Shown: positions 2,090 to 34,551 of the stretch, piece by piece
Layout: every line of letters begins with the position of its first letter
Position numbering within the stretch: the stretch's first letter is position 1
NCBI GenBank assembly: GCA_016779935.1
Contig: JADHMQ010000001.1
Coordinates: forward strand, 192,369-256,368
Source: Flavobacteriales bacterium
GTDB taxonomy: Bacteria > Bacteroidota > Bacteroidia > Flavobacteriales > UBA7312
Direction of reading: 5' to 3'
Length of the DNA stretch: 64,000 bases
The notes under the pieces: generated by a model
Seen by the model: the letters and a program-made list of their open reading frames with translations, nothing else
What the model was told of the DNA's origin: nothing
Database searches by the model: none
Translations under genes and position numbers: made by a program

Positions 2090-4915
2090 TTAGTTTATTA
2101 ATTCATCTTTAAGAAAAGGTGCCGTATGCCCTTTTGTTGATTGTATAAGTTCTTCAGGTGTTCCTGTATTTATTACATTGCCACCATTTTTACCACCATC
2201 AGGGCCAATTTCAATTATGTGGTCAGTCATTTTTATAACATCAAGATTGTGTTCTATAACGACCACTGTATTTCCTTTATTTACTATTTTTTCTATTACT
2301 TGAAGAAGTACGTTTACATCTTCAAAATGAAGTCCTGTTGTGGGTTCATCAAGAATGTAAAATGTATTTCCAGTACTTTTCTTTGCCAATTCACTAGCTA
2401 GTTTTACTCTTTGGGATTCACCACCTGAAAGAGTAGTGGATTGTTGTCCGAGTTTTACATAGCCCAATCCAACATCTACTAAAGCACTTATTTGTCGTTT
2501 AATTTTCGGATGATTATCAAAAAATTCTAAGGCTTGGTTGAGAGTCATTTCTAGAACGTCTGAAATAGATTTTCCTTTATATCTTATTTCTAAGGTTTCT
2601 TTGTTGTAGCGTTTACCATTGCAGCTTTCACAATTGACATATACATCAGGCAAGAAATTCATTTCAATAGTTTTTACGCCAGCACCTTTGCAGTCTTCAC
2701 ATCTGCCACCACTTACATTGAATGAAAATCGACCAACTTTATACCCTCTTGCTTTTGATTCTGGGTGATTAGTATAAAGGGCTCTTATCTCTGAAAATAC
2801 ACCAGAATATGTAGCGGGGTTTGAACGAGGTGTTCGCCCAATAGGCGACTGGTCAACTTCAATGACTTTATCAATGTGTTCTAGTCCACTTATAGAATCA
2901 TATTCAAGAGGTTTTTTTACACTATTATAAAAATACTGATTGAGAATAGGATATAGTGTTTCATTTACTAATGTGCTTTTTCCACTACCAGAAACGCCTA
3001 TTACTCCTATAAATTTAGCTAGTGGGAAGTCAACATTAATGTTTTTGAGATTGTTTCCTCTTGCTCCTTTTATTGATAGTTTTTTGCCATTACCACTTCT
3101 TCGTTTAGAGTTTGGCTGAATCGATTGTACTCCTGTTAGATAGTCTATTGTTAAAGAACCTTTAGAAAGAAACTCTTTGATATTTCCTTGAGCAATAATT
3201 TCCCCACCATGAATTCCTGCGCCAGGTCCAATATCAATAATGTGGTCAGCGGATAGAATCATATCCTTATCATGTTCTACCACAATGATTGAATTACCAA
3301 TATCTCGTAGTTTCTTTAAAGATTGAATGAGTTTATGATTATCCCTTTGGTGTAATCCAATGCTTGGTTCATCTAAAATGTAGAGAACATCTGTTAACTG
3401 AGAACCTATTTGTGTAGCTAGTCGAATTCTTTGGCTCTCACCACCTGAAATGCTTCTTGATGAACGGTTTAAAGAAAGATAATTTAGACCAACGTCTATT
3501 AGAAACTGTATTCGCTTGCTTAATTCTTTGATAATTTCGTTACCAATTATTTTTTGTTTTTCATTGAGTTTGCTCTCTAGACTATCAATCCATTTTTTTA
3601 GTTCAATGATATCCATCTCAGCGACTTCAGAGATGTTTTTCTCATCTATTTTGAAAAATAATGATTCCGTTTTTAATCGAGAACCATTGCATTTTTTACA
3701 TTCTTTTTTAATCATGAATTCACTTGCCCAACGTCTTAATTTTGTGGATGATGAGTTCTTGAATTGGTCTTCAATGAAATTGATAATCCCTTCAAAGTTA
3801 ATTTTATACGATTTGCTAAGTCCAGCTTCTTTTAGTTCAACATCAAATGTTTCATTTGATCCATATAGAATAGCGTCCATCCCTTTTTTAGGAATATCTT
3901 TTATTGGTGTGGATAAAGTGAAATTGTATTTTCTTCCAATAGTTTCAATCTGACCAGTAATCCATGTATTAGCATTCTTGGCAATGGGAGTTAGGCCACC
4001 ATTATTGATGCTTAGATTTTCATTAATGATTTTACTTTTATCAATAACTGACTTAACGCCTAAGCCGTTACATTTTGAGCATGCCCCTTTCGGAGAATTA
4101 AATGAAAAACTGTTTGGTTCTGGTTGTGCATAAGAAATGCCTGTTTTGGAACACATTAAGTGACGACTGAAATAACGTTCATTACCACTTTCAATATTAA
4201 GAGTCATTATCAATCCATCTCCGTACTTCATAGCGGTTTCTATGGATTGTTTTAAGCGTTTTTCATTTTCTTTTTTGATGATAAGCTTATCGATAACAAT
4301 TTCAATATCGTGAGTTTTAAAACGATCAAGCTTCATTCCGGGTGTTATTTCGGTTAGCTCACCATCGACTCTTACTTTCAAAAAACCTTGTCTGGCAGTT
4401 TGCTCAAAAAGTTCCCTATAATGTCCTTTTCTTGAAATAACAACAGGGGCAAGGATAATGGTTTTCTCTTGACTTAGTTCATTTGTAATGATGTCATTAA
4501 TTTCATCATTGGTGTAAGAAACCATTTTTTCACCAGTATTGTAAGAATATGCATCAGATGCTCTTGCGAAAAGTAATCTTAAAAAGTCATAAATTTCAGT
4601 AATTGTTCCTACTGTAGAGCGTGGGTTTTTATTAGTCGTTTTTTGTTCAATAGAAATAACAGGGGAGAGACCACTGATTTTATCGACATCGGGACGTTCT
4701 AAACCGCCAAGAAATTGTCTAGCATAAGCGGTAAACGTTTCAATATACCTTCTTTGACCTTCAGCATAAATAGTATCAAAAGCAAGTGATGATTTTCCGC
4801 TGCCACTCAAGCCTGTAATGACTACCAATTCATTTCTAGGAATAGTAATGTCAATATTTTTAAGGTTATGCTCCTTCGCTCCAAATATTTGAAGTGTTTC
4901 TTTACTTTTACTCAT
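2090..4915 (-). CDS. uvrA: Excinuclease ABC subunit UvrA
   Basis: Damage-recognition ATPase of nucleotide excision repair, 941 residues, the normal length. It carries two ABC ATPase modules: Walker A motifs GLSGSGKSS (residues 35-43) and GVSGSGKST (about 645), and signatures [12 protein letters not shown] and [12 protein letters not shown]. Cysteine pairs CKKCNGSR and CEDCKGAG...[10 protein letters not shown] are present. The first zinc module has [10 protein letters not shown], but its expected N-terminal CXXC partner is only MCSKTG. UvrA loads UvrB, encoded separately at 15.7-17.6 kb. Its first 8 bases overlap the end of the upstream lytic transglycosylase gene, which suggests translational coupling. 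Confidence 0.97.
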
Positions 4916-13980: not shown

Positions 13981-14826
13981 ATGTTTGAAAATAATGATTC
14001 AGGTGGATTTAACCCTAAACTACCTAGATTTTTTGTAATAGGATTTGTAGCAATTATATTTTTACTAATTACTGGAGGAAATATGTTTTATACTGTAAAC
14101 CCTGGAGAAAAAGCGGTAGTATTTAAGCGATTTGGTGGAGGACTAGATAAAGATTTAGTAGTCCCTCAAGGATTTCACTTTATAGCACCATGGAACAAAG
14201 TCTATATTTATAACGTGAAAATTCAGGAAGACTATGAGGCAATGGAAGTGTTGTCTAAAAATGGTTTATCCATTAAAATTGATTTGTCTTTTCGTTTTAC
14301 GCCAGACATGAGTCAACTTGGATACCTTCACGATTTAGTAGGAGAAGATTACTTAGAGAGTATCATTCGACCAGAAATTCGTTCTGTAACTAGGGAGGTA
14401 ATTGGTGAGTACTTACCAGAAGAATTATATTCCACAAAACGTGAGGAAGTTGAAGATAAGATTTATGAAATTACATCTAGATCAATTGGTGATAAATACA
14501 TTTTCTTAGATGCAATTTTAATTAGAGATGTAACTCTTCCAAAAACACTACAGGCAGCGATTGAAAATAAACTACGTCAAGAGCAAGAAGCTTTAGAGTA
14601 TGAGTTCAAACTATTGAGAGAATCTAAAGAAGCCGAAAGAAAGCGAATTGAAGCTGAAGGTATTTCAGACTTCCAGAGAATTGTAACCAAGACCATTACA
14701 CCTCAATTATTGAAATGGAAAGGTGTGGAAGCTACTCAAGAATTATCAAAATCACCAAACTCTAAAGTTATTGTTATTGGAAATGGTGATGGCGATTTAC
14801 CAATTATCCTTGGCGGTAACGATTAA
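13981..14826 (+). CDS. Prohibitin/SPFH-domain membrane protein
   Basis: A 281-residue protein with one N-terminal membrane segment (about 17-37) and a prohibitin-like SPFH domain (about 38-215: NPGEKAVVFKRFGG, PQGFHFIAPWNKV, IIRPEIRSVTREVIG). A charged helical segment follows (ALEYEFKLLRESKEAERKRI) and a conserved tail. Proteins of this type form large membrane-bound ring assemblies that modulate proteases or membrane microdomains. It lies 21 bases after the VWA-like gene and probably belongs to the same transcript. No NfeD partner is seen nearby. Confidence 0.88.
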   Translation: MFENNDSGGFNPKLPRFFVIGFVAIIFLLITGGNMFYTVNPGEKAVVFKRFGGGLDKDLVVPQGFHFIAPWNKVYIYNVKIQEDYEAMEVLSKNGLSIKIDLSFRFTPDMSQLGYLHDLVGEDYLESIIRPEIRSVTREVIGEYLPEELYSTKREEVEDKIYEITSRSIGDKYIFLDAILIRDVTLPKTLQAAIENKLRQEQEALEYEFKLLRESKEAERKRIEAEGISDFQRIVTKTITPQLLKWKGVEATQELSKSPNSKVIVIGNGDGDLPIILGGND

Positions 14827-14854: not shown

Positions 14855-15217
14855 ATGAAGAAAGTAATTTTAATGTTGGCATTTGTATTGCCATTAGCAA
14901 TGATGGCTCAAACTAGACCAGCACCAGCAAAAAAGCCAGTTCCTGCTGAAAGAGTTTCTAAAAAAGTGAACTATATGGAAATGATATATTCGGAGGAAAT
15001 AGCAGGAAAGAAAGGCAGTAAAGAGGTGAAAGCAACCTATACCTTTAATTCTACTAACCCTAGAATTGATAAAATGATGACTGAAACCTCTGGAAAGTTT
15101 AAAACAGTTGTAGATGCAATGAACTATCTTTCATCAATGGGTTGGGAACTAGTTTCGGTGAGTGATGAAAAGTATTATTTTAAGAATAGTAAAAGTAAAC
15201 CACCGGTTAAAAGATAA
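14855..15217 (+). CDS. Small secreted protein with a DUF4177-like C-terminus
   Basis: 120 residues. A signal peptide (MKKVILMLAFVLPLAMMAQ) is followed by a Pro/Ala/Lys-rich linker and a compact domain. The ending (MNYLSSMGWELVSVSDEKYYF) resembles the 'LN-x-GWELVSV' ending of DUF4177 proteins. The function is unknown. It follows the SPFH gene by 28 bases and is closed by a strong terminator, so it is the last gene of the operon that starts with fabG. Confidence 0.7.
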   Translation: MKKVILMLAFVLPLAMMAQTRPAPAKKPVPAERVSKKVNYMEMIYSEEIAGKKGSKEVKATYTFNSTNPRIDKMMTETSGKFKTVVDAMNYLSSMGWELVSVSDEKYYFKNSKSKPPVKR

Positions 15218-15221
15218 TTTT

Positions 15222-15246
15222 AAGCCTCTGAAAAGAGGCTTTTTTT
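15222..15246 (+). terminator. Intrinsic terminator whose U-tract touches the next start codon
   Basis: Stem AAGCCTCT / AGAGGCTT (loop GAAA) with seven T ending at 15246. The ATG of the next gene begins at 15247. The AGAGG inside the 3' arm is the only SD-like sequence for that gene. Confidence 0.85.
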
Positions 15247-15651
15247 ATGAAACAATATCCAGAAAAAATACTATTAGCATGGGGAGAAGCTATCTCAGGT
15301 AACACTGAAATTAGAGATTGGCTTATGAAAAATAATTATCCTGAATTGGGCTTGTTTTGTTTTGCTCTTTATTTTGATAAAAAAGCATCCGATTGGCTAA
15401 TGAAAAATGCTCCCCATTTGTTAGCTATGATAAAAGGCGTTGAAGGTAAAAAAGATGCCATTCGTTGGTTAGAAATCAATGGATTCACCTTACTATCTAG
15501 AATAGCTAAAGCAGCAGATGACGATAAAGAGCAAATGCGTTGGCTAATGACGAACGATAAACTTTTTGGTGCTATTGCTCAGCGAATTAAATTAGTGAAA
15601 GACGATATTGAAGAAACTAATAACGATGTACATCGTTGGGGCTATGAATAG
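15247..15651 (+). CDS. Small protein of four 25-residue W-L repeats
   Basis: I do not recognise this 134-residue protein. Trp25, Trp50, Trp74 and Trp99 are spaced 25, 24 and 25 residues apart. Each is followed by Leu and then a similar segment (DWLMKNNYPEL, DWLMKNAPHLL, RWLEINGFTLL, RWLMTNDKLFG). This is a regular tandem repeat, most likely helix-turn-helix units of a small solenoid. There is no signal peptide or membrane segment, so it should be cytoplasmic. The start codon follows directly on the U-tract of a terminator. Its end is three bases from the convergent uvrB stop. Confidence 0.72.
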   Translation: MKQYPEKILLAWGEAISGNTEIRDWLMKNNYPELGLFCFALYFDKKASDWLMKNAPHLLAMIKGVEGKKDAIRWLEINGFTLLSRIAKAADDDKEQMRWLMTNDKLFGAIAQRIKLVKDDIEETNNDVHRWGYE

Positions 15652-15653
15652 AG

Positions 15654-17642
15654 CTATTTTTTCAATTTCTTTAGCTCAGTAAGCTTGTCTCTGAGCTTAA
15701 CAGCTTCAAGAAAGTCTAAATCTTGAGCAGCATTTTCCATTTGTTTACGTGTATTTTTAATAGCCTTTTCAAGTTCTTTAGAGTTGGAATAATCGGCATT
15801 TGATTCTGCCGCCATACTCATGCCTTCTTTAATAGCGTAAGGATTTAGCTTTTTAGCTAATTCGTTGTCTTTTTTCTTATTGAGCGGGGTAGGTACTAGA
15901 CCATTTTCCGTATTGTATGCCATTTGCTTCTCACGCCTTCTATTGGTTTCATCAACAGTGAGTTGCATACTGTTAGTAACTCTATCGGCATACATTATGA
16001 CTAATCCATTTACATTTCTGGCAGCTCTACCTGCAGTTTGCGTTAATGAGCGTTGTGAGCGTAAAAAACCTTCCTTATCAGCATCTAAAATAGCCACAAG
16101 GCTAACTTCTGGTAAGTCAAGGCCTTCTCTCAAAAGGTTTACACCTACCAATACATCAAATAAGCCTTCTCTTAGTTCATGTAGTATTTCCACGCGTTCC
16201 AAGGTGTCCACATCAGAATGAATGTATCTACACTTAATATTGAATCTAGTGAGGTATTTTGTTAGTTCTTCCGCCATTCGCTTAGTAAGAGTAGTAACAA
16301 GTGTCCGCTCATTTTTATCTATTCTAAGCTTAATTTCTTCAAGCAAATCGTCTATTTGATTGAGTGAAGGACGCACGTCAATAATAGGGTCTAGTAATCC
16401 GGTAGGTCGAATTACTTGCTCTGCTACAACACCTCCAGATTGTTCTAATTCAAAATCGGCTGGCGTTGCACTTACATATATAAATTGGTTGTTTATGGTT
16501 TCAAATTCCTCAAATTTTAGTGGTCTATTGTCCATAGCAGCAGGTAATCGGAATCCATATTCTACTAAGTTTTCTTTTCTAGATCTATCGCCACCATACA
16601 TGGCTCTAATCTGAGGAATGGTAACGTGACTCTCATCAATAACCGTCAAGAAATCGTTTGGGAAATAATCTATTAGACAGAATGGTCTGGTGCCAGCTTT
16701 TCTTCCGTCAAAATAACGGGAGTAATTCTCAATTCCAGAGCAGTAACCTAATTCGCGAATCATTTCTAAATCATAGTTTACACGCTCATCAAGACGTTTA
16801 GCTTCTGTCTTTCTATCCGTATTATGTAGAAATTGCACTTGGTCCATAAGGTCATCTTGAATTTGATGAATGGCACTTTGTATACGGTCTTTTGAAGCAA
16901 CGAATATGGTAGCAGGAAAAATCCTCAAGTACTCAAACTTTTCAATGATGCTATTATTTACTGGGTCAAAACTTTCTATTTCTTCAATTTCATCACCCCA
17001 AAAATGAATTTTGTAAGCTATATCTGCATAGGCTGGGAAAATAGAAACCGTATCTCCTCTAACCATAAAATTTCCACGTTCAAATTGATTGGCTGATCTA
17101 GAATATAAGGATGTTACAAACTGATTTAGTAATTTATTCCTACTTAGTTTTTGTCCCGCGTGTATTTCAATGACATTATTATTGAATTCTTCTGGATTTC
17201 CAATTCCATAAATACAAGAAACGGATGCGACCACAATGATATCTTTTCTGCCTGATAGTAGAGTAGAGGTGGTGCTTAAACGGAGTTTTTCTATTTCATC
17301 GTTAATGGATAAGTCTTTCTCGATATATGTTCCTGAACTTGGTATATAGGCCTCAGGTTGATAATAGTCGTAGTAAGATACAAAATATTCAACAGCATTA
17401 TTTGGAAAAAACTGCTTAAACTCACTGTAAAGTTGAGCGGCTAAAGTTTTATTATGACTTAATATCAAGGTAGGTTTTTCAACTTCCTTTATCACATTTG
17501 CTATTGTAAACGTTTTTCCAGAACCTGTAACTCCAAGTAGAGTTTGATGCTTTTCATCGTTATAAATCCCTTGAGCTAATTGTTTTATAGCTTGTGGTTG
17601 GTCACCCGTTGGTTTAAAATCAGAAAAAATTTCAAACCCCAT
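15654..17642 (-). CDS. uvrB: Excinuclease ABC subunit UvrB
   Basis: Helicase-like damage-verification subunit of nucleotide excision repair, 662 residues. It has Walker A GVTGSGKT (37-44), the tyrosine-rich beta-hairpin YYDYYQPEAYIPSSGTYIEK that clamps the damaged strand, the DESH box in TVIDESHVT, the helicase motif VTTLTKRMAEELTKYL, QTAGRAARN, and a C-terminal UVR coiled coil (MENAAQDLDFLEAVKLRDK) that contacts UvrC. Its start overlaps the stop of the upstream DUF349 gene by one base, so the two form an operon. uvrA is 11 kb away on the same strand. Confidence 0.97.
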   Translation of the reverse strand: MGFEIFSDFKPTGDQPQAIKQLAQGIYNDEKHQTLLGVTGSGKTFTIANVIKEVEKPTLILSHNKTLAAQLYSEFKQFFPNNAVEYFVSYYDYYQPEAYIPSSGTYIEKDLSINDEIEKLRLSTTSTLLSGRKDIIVVASVSCIYGIGNPEEFNNNVIEIHAGQKLSRNKLLNQFVTSLYSRSANQFERGNFMVRGDTVSIFPAYADIAYKIHFWGDEIEEIESFDPVNNSIIEKFEYLRIFPATIFVASKDRIQSAIHQIQDDLMDQVQFLHNTDRKTEAKRLDERVNYDLEMIRELGYCSGIENYSRYFDGRKAGTRPFCLIDYFPNDFLTVIDESHVTIPQIRAMYGGDRSRKENLVEYGFRLPAAMDNRPLKFEEFETINNQFIYVSATPADFELEQSGGVVAEQVIRPTGLLDPIIDVRPSLNQIDDLLEEIKLRIDKNERTLVTTLTKRMAEELTKYLTRFNIKCRYIHSDVDTLERVEILHELREGLFDVLVGVNLLREGLDLPEVSLVAILDADKEGFLRSQRSLTQTAGRAARNVNGLVIMYADRVTNSMQLTVDETNRRREKQMAYNTENGLVPTPLNKKKDNELAKKLNPYAIKEGMSMAAESNADYSNSKELEKAIKNTRKQMENAAQDLDFLEAVKLRDKLTELKKLKK

Positions 17643-33342: not shown

Positions 33343-33831
33343 CTATAAATTTTTTCTAAGGTTTACCATTTTAATGGCTGTAATACTAGCTTCTACACCT
33401 TTGTTGCCATGTTTGCCGCCAGAGCGGTCTATAGCTTGCTGCATTGTATTGTCAGTTAGCACACCGAAAATAACGGCTTTATTATATTTTAGAGACACGT
33501 CTTTTATGCCATTTGCAGTAGTCTGGCATACATAGTCAAAGTGTTTGGTTTCGCCTTGAATAACACTTCCTAAGCAAATAACGGCATCAACGTTTTTTGA
33601 TTCTAATAAGAATTGAGCAGCAAGAGGAAGCTCAAAGCTACCAGGCACATTCTTTCTAATAATATCCTCTCTCTTACACCCACATTCTACAAGTGCTCCG
33701 TAAGCACCTGAAAATAAGTTTTCAGTGATATTTGCATTCCATTCCGAAACAACAATACCAATCTTCATGCCCTTAGCTGAAGGCACATCTTCTAGATTGT
33801 AATGAGATAAATTTTTATTTTCTGTTGCCAT
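33343..33831 (-). CDS. ribH: 6,7-dimethyl-8-ribityllumazine synthase
   Basis: 162 residues, the penultimate enzyme of riboflavin synthesis. It joins 5-amino-6-ribitylaminouracil with dihydroxybutanone phosphate. Conserved stretches are VSEWNANITENL, VPGSFELPLAAQFL, CLGSVIQGETKHFDYVC (with the catalytic histidine) and FGVLTDNTMQQA. The C-terminus ends normally. Its start codon abuts the U-tract of a terminator hairpin that ends the upstream TPR gene, which suggests either read-through dependence or a promoter inside that gene. Confidence 0.96.
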   Translation of the reverse strand: MATENKNLSHYNLEDVPSAKGMKIGIVVSEWNANITENLFSGAYGALVECGCKREDIIRKNVPGSFELPLAAQFLLESKNVDAVICLGSVIQGETKHFDYVCQTTANGIKDVSLKYNKAVIFGVLTDNTMQQAIDRSGGKHGNKGVEASITAIKMVNLRKNL

Positions 33832-33832
33832 T

Positions 33833-33857
33833 AAAAAAAGCTCGATAAACGAGCTTT
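33833..33857 (-). terminator. Intrinsic terminator after the TPR gene, touching the ribH start
   Basis: On the minus strand: stem AAAGCTCG / CGAGCTTT, then seven T, then AATG with the ribH start at 33831. It begins seven bases past the TPR gene stop. Confidence 0.85.
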
Positions 33858-33864
33858 AGTTAGA

Positions 33865-34551
33865 TTATTTTCTTAATTCAGCTCGATTAATATACTTTTC
33901 TATATCTCTCGCTTCATCAGAGGTAGAATACTTAGTTTTAATTAATGTATAGTATTCTACTGCTTTGCTGAACTTTTCTTCTTGCTCCAATGCCATTGCA
34001 GCTCTTTTAAGATAAATAGGAGCGGTGAATTCATTTTCACTGTTGAATGCTGCTTTAGTCCAATAGTTTATAGCTTCATCAACTTCGTCAATATTCATAT
34101 AAGCATCACCTAAACTTCCATAGCATATAGAAGATATGATTTCATCGTCACTTGAAAAATCACTTAAGTATTCAATAGCAGACTCATTATCGCCTGTACG
34201 TAAATAGCTGATTCCAGCGTAATAGTTTGCTAAATTGCCAGCATCTGTAGAACCGTAATCGTCTATAATGTCTAATAACCCTAAGTTATCATTAATACCA
34301 TTTAATGCTAGATTGAAGGAATCTTTTTCAAAATATTCTACAGCAACAAACAATTCAGTTTGAGCTTCTTCATTAATTGATTGAACATAAAATTTATCGT
34401 AGGCAAGATAAAGTGCAATCACTGCAACAACACCAAACACAAATGTAGAGAGTTGTTTTTGATTATTCTCCACCCACTGCTCAGTACGTGTTAGCGTTTC
34501 TTCAACAGCTGCAAACTGCTCTTCCGTTTTATTTACCTTCTTTTTAGCCAT
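33865..34551 (-). CDS. TPR protein with one N-terminal membrane anchor (YfgM-like)
   Basis: 228 residues from the chosen start (MAKKKVNKTEEQF). A Lys-rich cytoplasmic N-terminus and one membrane segment (about residues 33-53, STFVFGVVAVIALYLAYDKF) precede a periplasmic TPR-type helical domain with NYYAGISYLRTGDNESAIEY. The layout is that of YfgM, an ancillary factor of the Sec translocon that works with periplasmic chaperones. The start at 34551 is preferred to an in-frame ATG at 34593, because a -7 promoter element lies between them. Confidence 0.85.
   Translation of the reverse strand: MAKKKVNKTEEQFAAVEETLTRTEQWVENNQKQLSTFVFGVVAVIALYLAYDKFYVQSINEEAQTELFVAVEYFEKDSFNLALNGINDNLGLLDIIDDYGSTDAGNLANYYAGISYLRTGDNESAIEYLSDFSSDDEIISSICYGSLGDAYMNIDEVDEAINYWTKAAFNSENEFTAPIYLKRAAMALEQEEKFSKAVEYYTLIKTKYSTSDEARDIEKYINRAELRK

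Follow-up and report, generated by a model that had tools for sequence, protein, structure and literature searches.

Introduction

Leucine-rich variant (LRV) repeats have units of ~24-26 residues, in which alpha and 3-10 helices alternate. Alpha-solenoids are divided into eight subfolds in a review of the fold (PMC11514114), with unit lengths of 30-34 residues in ankyrin, 35 in PPR, ~36 in Pumilio, ~40 in HEAT and 42 in armadillo repeats (PMC11514114). Here, we describe a protein of 134 amino acids (aa), P0001, whose 25-residue unit, marked by a Trp-Leu (W-L) pair, is shorter than all five of these units. Its gene lies in a stretch of 64,000 nucleotides (hereafter, the window) of contig JADHMQ010000001.1 from a Flavobacteriales bacterium. 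We refer to P0001 and its relatives as WL proteins.

With the WL family, the known helical repeats would gain a compact natural member, with a unit below the alpha-solenoid lengths given above. Small modular scaffolds of this kind are useful for the study of repeat-protein evolution and, as starting points, for the design of binders, and a model of the WL family would allow many hypothetical proteins to be named.

Repeat units of the WL protein

The WL gene was found at 15247..15651 on the + strand, as an open reading frame (ORF) with an ATG start. Comparison with its nearest relative gave a dN of 0.03, a dS of 0.71 and a dN/dS of ~0.04, with 4, 4 and 36 substitutions at codon positions 1, 2 and 3, respectively. 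The WL gene is a real coding gene under strong purifying selection.

Trp residues occur at positions 12, 25, 50, 74, 99 and 131 of P0001. Those at 25, 50, 74 and 99 are each followed by Leu and are spaced 25, 24 and 25 residues apart, as had been reported in a preliminary description of the sequence and is confirmed here on the translation. The same description gave each pair an N-x-x-L tail. An Asn followed by a Leu does come after each W-L pair, but the gap between the two varies (N29-x4-L34, N54-x3-L58, N78-x3-L82 and N103-x2-L106).

The regularity exceeds what is expected by chance. Self-similarity of P0001 reached z values of 3.5, 3.9 and 6.0 at lags of 24, 25 and 49 residues, and its top internal repeat segment scored 60, against a maximum of 48 among 2000 shuffled sequences. 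Moreover, a 25-residue unit HMM, trained solely on proteins from outside the taxonomic family of the window, found four units in P0001 with a summed score of 103 bits, against 7.5 bits for the best of 1000 shuffles. Self-similarity at lag 25 was detected in all 63 close relatives and in 95% of 43 distant relatives, so that homologues share the period. A chance pattern of Trp residues in an ordinary helical protein might be suspected from the replacement of Trp99 by other residues in some relatives, but the HMM scores and the conserved period already refute this reading, and we consider its probability negligible.

The first unit comprises aa 7-30 (15265..15336, + strand; unit HMM 37.8 bits), with helices predicted by AlphaFold2 (AF2) at residues 6-16 and 20-28, and contains W12 and W25-L26. 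Unit 2 covers aa 31-54 (15337..15408, +; 21.6 bits; helices 32-41 and 45-54) and has an invariant W50-L51. In unit 3, at aa 56-79 (15412..15483, +; 28.9 bits; helices 56-65 and 69-77), W74 is invariant. The fourth unit, at aa 82-104 (15490..15558, +; 14.3 bits; helices 81-90 and 94-103), combines a variable W99 with an invariant L100. The repeats thus span approximately aa 7-104, and they are followed by a ninth, C-terminal capping helix (aa 105-126 in the AF2 model) and a conserved tail with D127 and H129 (helix and tail together 15559..15648, +). The earlier statement that the protein is almost purely four repeats was therefore right about the repeats and slightly overstated with respect to the whole chain.

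Residue conservation

The 25-residue consensus of the unit reads x-E-L-a-A-f-a-x-A-I-x-G-[DN]-x-x-A-x-x-W-L-x-x-N-G-x. Across 338 stacked units, with positions counted from the Trp, the frequencies of the preceding conserved residues were 0.74 for L at -16, 0.50 for A at -14, 0.59 for A at -10, 0.63 for G at -7, 0.65 for D/N at -6 and 0.67 for A at -3. The Trp itself (position 0) had a frequency of 0.80, the Leu at +1 of 0.98 and the Asn at +4 of 0.58.

Among close-branch sequences, W12, W50 and W74 never vary, W25 is present in 92% and W99, the Trp of the fourth repeat, is the least conserved at 75%, being replaced by R, E, Y or H in some relatives. Sequences of the distant branch have Trp at the four positions in 82%, 59%, 47% and 65% of cases, partly with Phe or Tyr in its place. 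Judging from these alignments, individual repeat Trp residues are replaceable and the Leu of W-L is nearly fixed. No homologues devoid of the periodic Trp were encountered among these relatives.

In the tail, D127 is conserved in 100% and H129 in 98% of 51 sequences, forming a D-x-H motif. The nearly invariant residues as a whole are the core-type W, L, A and G of the repeats, short Y-P and E positions, and this D-x-H tail. Hence, the Trp periodicity emphasized in the preliminary description holds, but that description had overlooked that Trp12 is invariant and Trp99 less well conserved, and that a ninth helix and a D-x-H tail follow.

Predicted structure

The AF2 model of P0001, based on an alignment of 51 sequences, had a pLDDT of 93.3 and a pTM of 0.84. 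Its nine short helices amount to four and a half helical hairpins, and the D-x-H tail sits in a region of low confidence (pLDDT 61). The distant member L098, modelled from a separate alignment with a pLDDT of 90.6, had helices at residues 6-16, 20-28, 32-41, 45-53, 57-66, 70-78, 82-91, 95-103 and 107-124. The helix borders of the two models match despite little common sequence, and neither model contains beta strands.

AF2 can be over-confident on repeat sequences, as was demonstrated with perfect-repeat beta-solenoids (PMC11795689). Unlike these, the WL repeats are diverged and helical, and AF2 agrees from two independent alignments. The period, the unit HMM and the AF2 helices all indicate tandem helical units of like sequence and layout, as in alpha-solenoids. 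Because the 25-residue period is accompanied by confident and matching AF2 models, our results support the earlier suggestion of a short solenoid of regular two-helix units, and we consider it very probable that WL proteins are a repeat class with a helical solenoid fold.

Foldseek searches of the PDB with the P0001 and L098 models gave no significant match (best E-values 2.7 and 1.6). A second-look comparison with PDB folds (VIA) yielded Z-scores of 3-4.7 at an rmsd of 5-8, a low range that helical repeats often reach. The matches included a designed PPR protein (Z 4.7, rmsd 7.0, 102 residues aligned), alpha-SNAP/Sec17 (Z 4.5, rmsd 5.2, 112 aligned) and the TPR domains of STUB1 and Sgt2 (Z 3.8-4.2). 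Among viral structures, the best fold matches were weak and were ankyrin proteins, the top one from a giant virus (E 0.47, TMq 0.29).

Comparison with known repeats

P0001 had no match over the cut-off in Pfam or NCBIfam, and its relatives had only scattered weak matches in Pfam, NCBIfam and PHROGs. Sequences of solved structures gave no match below an E-value of 0.15. None of the enzyme families in the family libraries was matched by WL proteins, and a 25-residue WL unit was not described in the literature that we searched for short or new helical repeats. These searches agree with the initial view that the protein belongs to no known family.

WL proteins share with TPR, PPR and alpha-SNAP the antiparallel helical hairpins of an alpha-solenoid, and these folds were the best of the weak structural matches. 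The WL protein might accordingly be a miniature TPR/PPR-type solenoid with a concave groove that binds RNA or peptides, and the slightly basic distant branch (median charge ~+1) would suit such a role. However, WL helices are only 9-11 residues long, the unit has 25 instead of 34-35 residues, a sequence match is lacking, and no TPR or PPR model was among the Pfam matches listed for P0001 and the distant members scanned. WL proteins therefore differ from TPR/PPR family members both in the unit and in the Pfam match. Given also the low Z-scores, the lack of a significant Foldseek match and the mildly acidic character of P0001's own branch, we regard a TPR/PPR-type solenoid as rather unlikely.

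The likeness to ankyrin lies in stacked two-helix units and in a similar G-x-x-x-x-x-L-L-x-x-G register. In a weak profile alignment, G-x-x-x-x-x-W-L-x-x-N-G of the WL unit stands opposite G-H-x-E-V-V-x-L-L-x-x-G of ankyrin, and the ankyrin loop falls in a gap. The best of the weak Pfam matches among 34 distant members included Ank_2 (E 0.0059) and Ank_4 (E 0.0061), both weak and small given 34 tests, and P0001 had no Ank match. These matches, the paired registers and the viral fold match would be compatible with the WL protein being a divergent ankyrin domain that lost its beta-hairpin loops, and hence belonging to the ankyrin family by descent. Against this, hhalign of WL profiles with ankyrin gave probabilities of merely 2.6% and 0.9%, the AF2 models contain neither strands nor hairpin loops, and ankyrin was absent from the PDB fold matches listed. 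In their unit of 25 rather than 30-34 residues (PMC11514114), their lack of beta-hairpin loops, their Trp-Leu hallmark and their lack of a Pfam Ank match over the cut-off, WL proteins fall outside the ankyrin family as defined, and we consider a divergent ankyrin domain unlikely. Descent of the WL repeat from ankyrin is possible but unproven, because the sequence register fits a loop-less ankyrin but the hhalign probability is low.

HEAT, armadillo and Pumilio repeats likewise belong to the alpha-solenoid class, but their units are longer (~40, 42 and ~36 residues, respectively; PMC11514114), and none of them was among the Pfam matches listed for the scanned members. LRV units are close to the WL unit in length. 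They differ in that both elements of the WL unit are predicted to be alpha helices, and LRV was not among the listed Pfam matches either.

Within the alpha-solenoids, a known kind of repeat protein, WL proteins make up a new repeat class, and they look like a real, so far unnamed family of tiny scaffold proteins. A more far-reaching reading is that they form a distinct, undescribed alpha-solenoid subclass that occurs in Bacteroidia alone and whose unit, with 25 residues and the Trp-Leu hallmark, is the shortest regular helix hairpin. Such a subclass would have a superhelical geometry of its own, and its repeat surface and D-x-H tail would read a separate class of ligand. We put this forward tentatively, at slightly less than even chances.

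Distribution of the WL family

All 10 genomes sampled from the taxonomic family of the window carry the WL gene, at 57-94% identity. Among the other 138 relatives searched, it was absent; the sole match, L011, was rejected as chance, as it is a surface protein with repeats of its own. A match to a glycosidase-like ORF (L139) was rejected likewise.

Within the class Bacteroidia, WL family members were found in 98 of the 395 genomes and in 36 of the 197 genera. A profile of the distant branch (alignment A3) matched 95 of 295 class genomes and recovered P0001 at an E-value of 6e-24, and the profile of the close branch (A1) in turn detected the distant branch. Since each profile detects the other branch, their sequences place the close and distant branches in one superfamily with a shared 25-residue period.

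Between roughly a quarter and a third of the sampled Bacteroidia genomes carry a family member; the family is chromosomal and sporadic within the class. No WL relative was found in the plasmids, phages and viral contigs searched, and phylum-wide samples, in which the number of other-class genomes is unstated, gave no convincing member outside Bacteroidia. Very long open frames of 300-650 aa around some WL relatives (e.g. L054-L059) suggested fusions; these were rejected, as the upstream part resembles an unrelated GC-rich open frame.

Genomic neighbourhood

In the taxonomic family of the window, the gene order is an SPFH protein, a small protein with a signal-peptide-like start, the WL gene and a convergent UvrB-like gene. 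The SPFH/Band_7 (prohibitin-like) protein at 13981..14826 on the + strand (Pfam Band_7, E 1.7e-26) is a conserved neighbour, its order being kept in L005, L009 and L010. The small protein is a 120-aa ORF at 14855..15217 (+) without a Pfam match over the cut-off. It changes fast, as both its length and its sequence differ in L009 and L010. The ORF named UvrB-like from its sequence, at 15654..17642 on the - strand, also lies downstream in L005, L009 and L010, and in the window its stop is 3 bases past that of the WL gene.

A hairpin with a T-run, resembling an intrinsic terminator in a terminator scan, was found at 15222..15246 (+) and runs right up to the ATG with which the WL gene starts. It was kept within a few bases of this ATG in 10 genomes of the family, with compensating changes in the stem (CCTCT/AGAGG, CCTCA/TGAGG, CTCCA/TGGAG and CCCTG/CAGGG). 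The hairpin might simply terminate the upstream gene, or it might act in the control of the WL gene.

A second terminator-like hairpin, at 33831-33865, immediately precedes the start codon of an ORF of 162 aa on the - strand, lumazine synthase-like by its sequence. Of the window's 57 ORFs with 100 aa or more, these two alone have a terminator-like hairpin in such a position.

WL proteins might be functional partners of membrane-associated SPFH (Band_7) proteins. The WL gene follows an SPFH gene in the window's family, and in six loci of an unrelated branch (L074, L078, L079, L081, L087 and L091) a different SPFH protein (Band_7_1 + GYF_2) has a single WL gene or two of them next to it, in most of these loci together with a zinc-ribbon protein. 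Yet other WL branches have quite different neighbours, such as a nucleoside-recognition 'Gate' protein and a pseudouridine synthase, and the terminator-like hairpin directly before the WL gene of the window suggests a separate transcription unit. With two cases, coincidence is conceivable too, and we judge a partnership with SPFH proteins improbable. No partner gene common to all WL branches was found in the neighbourhoods.

Three of the loci with zinc-ribbon and SPFH proteins nearby carry tandem pairs of paralogous WL genes (L081, 3340-4151; L087, 3358-4222; L091, 2787-3635).

An uncharacterised protein of ~77 aa (c0; MRIIxxIPHPxxxITIFxMNDKYxVKFEAGPMEQTFKF...), without a Pfam match over the cut-off, is encoded at L094 3826-4050 and at 14 other loci (alignment A4). 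It mostly adjoins distant WL genes or lies a few bases off, in several cases close downstream. We rejected c0 as an obligate WL partner, because 107 of 295 class genomes have it, some of them from families that lack a WL gene, and because it is absent from the genome of the window.

Putative function

P0001 would be a soluble, single-domain mini alpha-solenoid, in which each 25-residue unit folds into two of the short helices. The W-L pair in the second helix would most likely pack in the core, against the Ala/Leu face of neighbouring helices. Four units, the N-terminal Y-P start and the ninth, capping helix would together form one closed small scaffold. The variable outer positions of the helices may provide a binding surface. 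The D-x-H tail, which is invariant yet flexible, may be a docking or ligand-contact motif. Taken as a whole, this model of a mini alpha-solenoid serving as a protein or peptide adaptor is the likeliest of the readings considered and moderately probable; for the role of protein-binding adaptor by itself, we rate the chances as about even. The lack of an enzyme family match points to an adaptor, as do neighbours that vary between families, as would be the case for a stand-alone adaptor.

The close branch is mildly acidic, with a median net charge of -2.3, and the distant branch, at +0.9, is near neutral to basic. Nucleic-acid binding, which the preliminary description had considered beside peptide binding, is therefore less likely for P0001, though it is possible in the wider WL family. 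Alternatively, the conserved Asp/His pair of the tail might be part of an active site or a metal site.

The C-terminus is prolonged in two WL relatives by a glycine-rich extension ending in Trp, in L093 at 3394-3915 (...GGVGGGGKW) and in L107 at 3277-3813 (...GGGGAGGLW).
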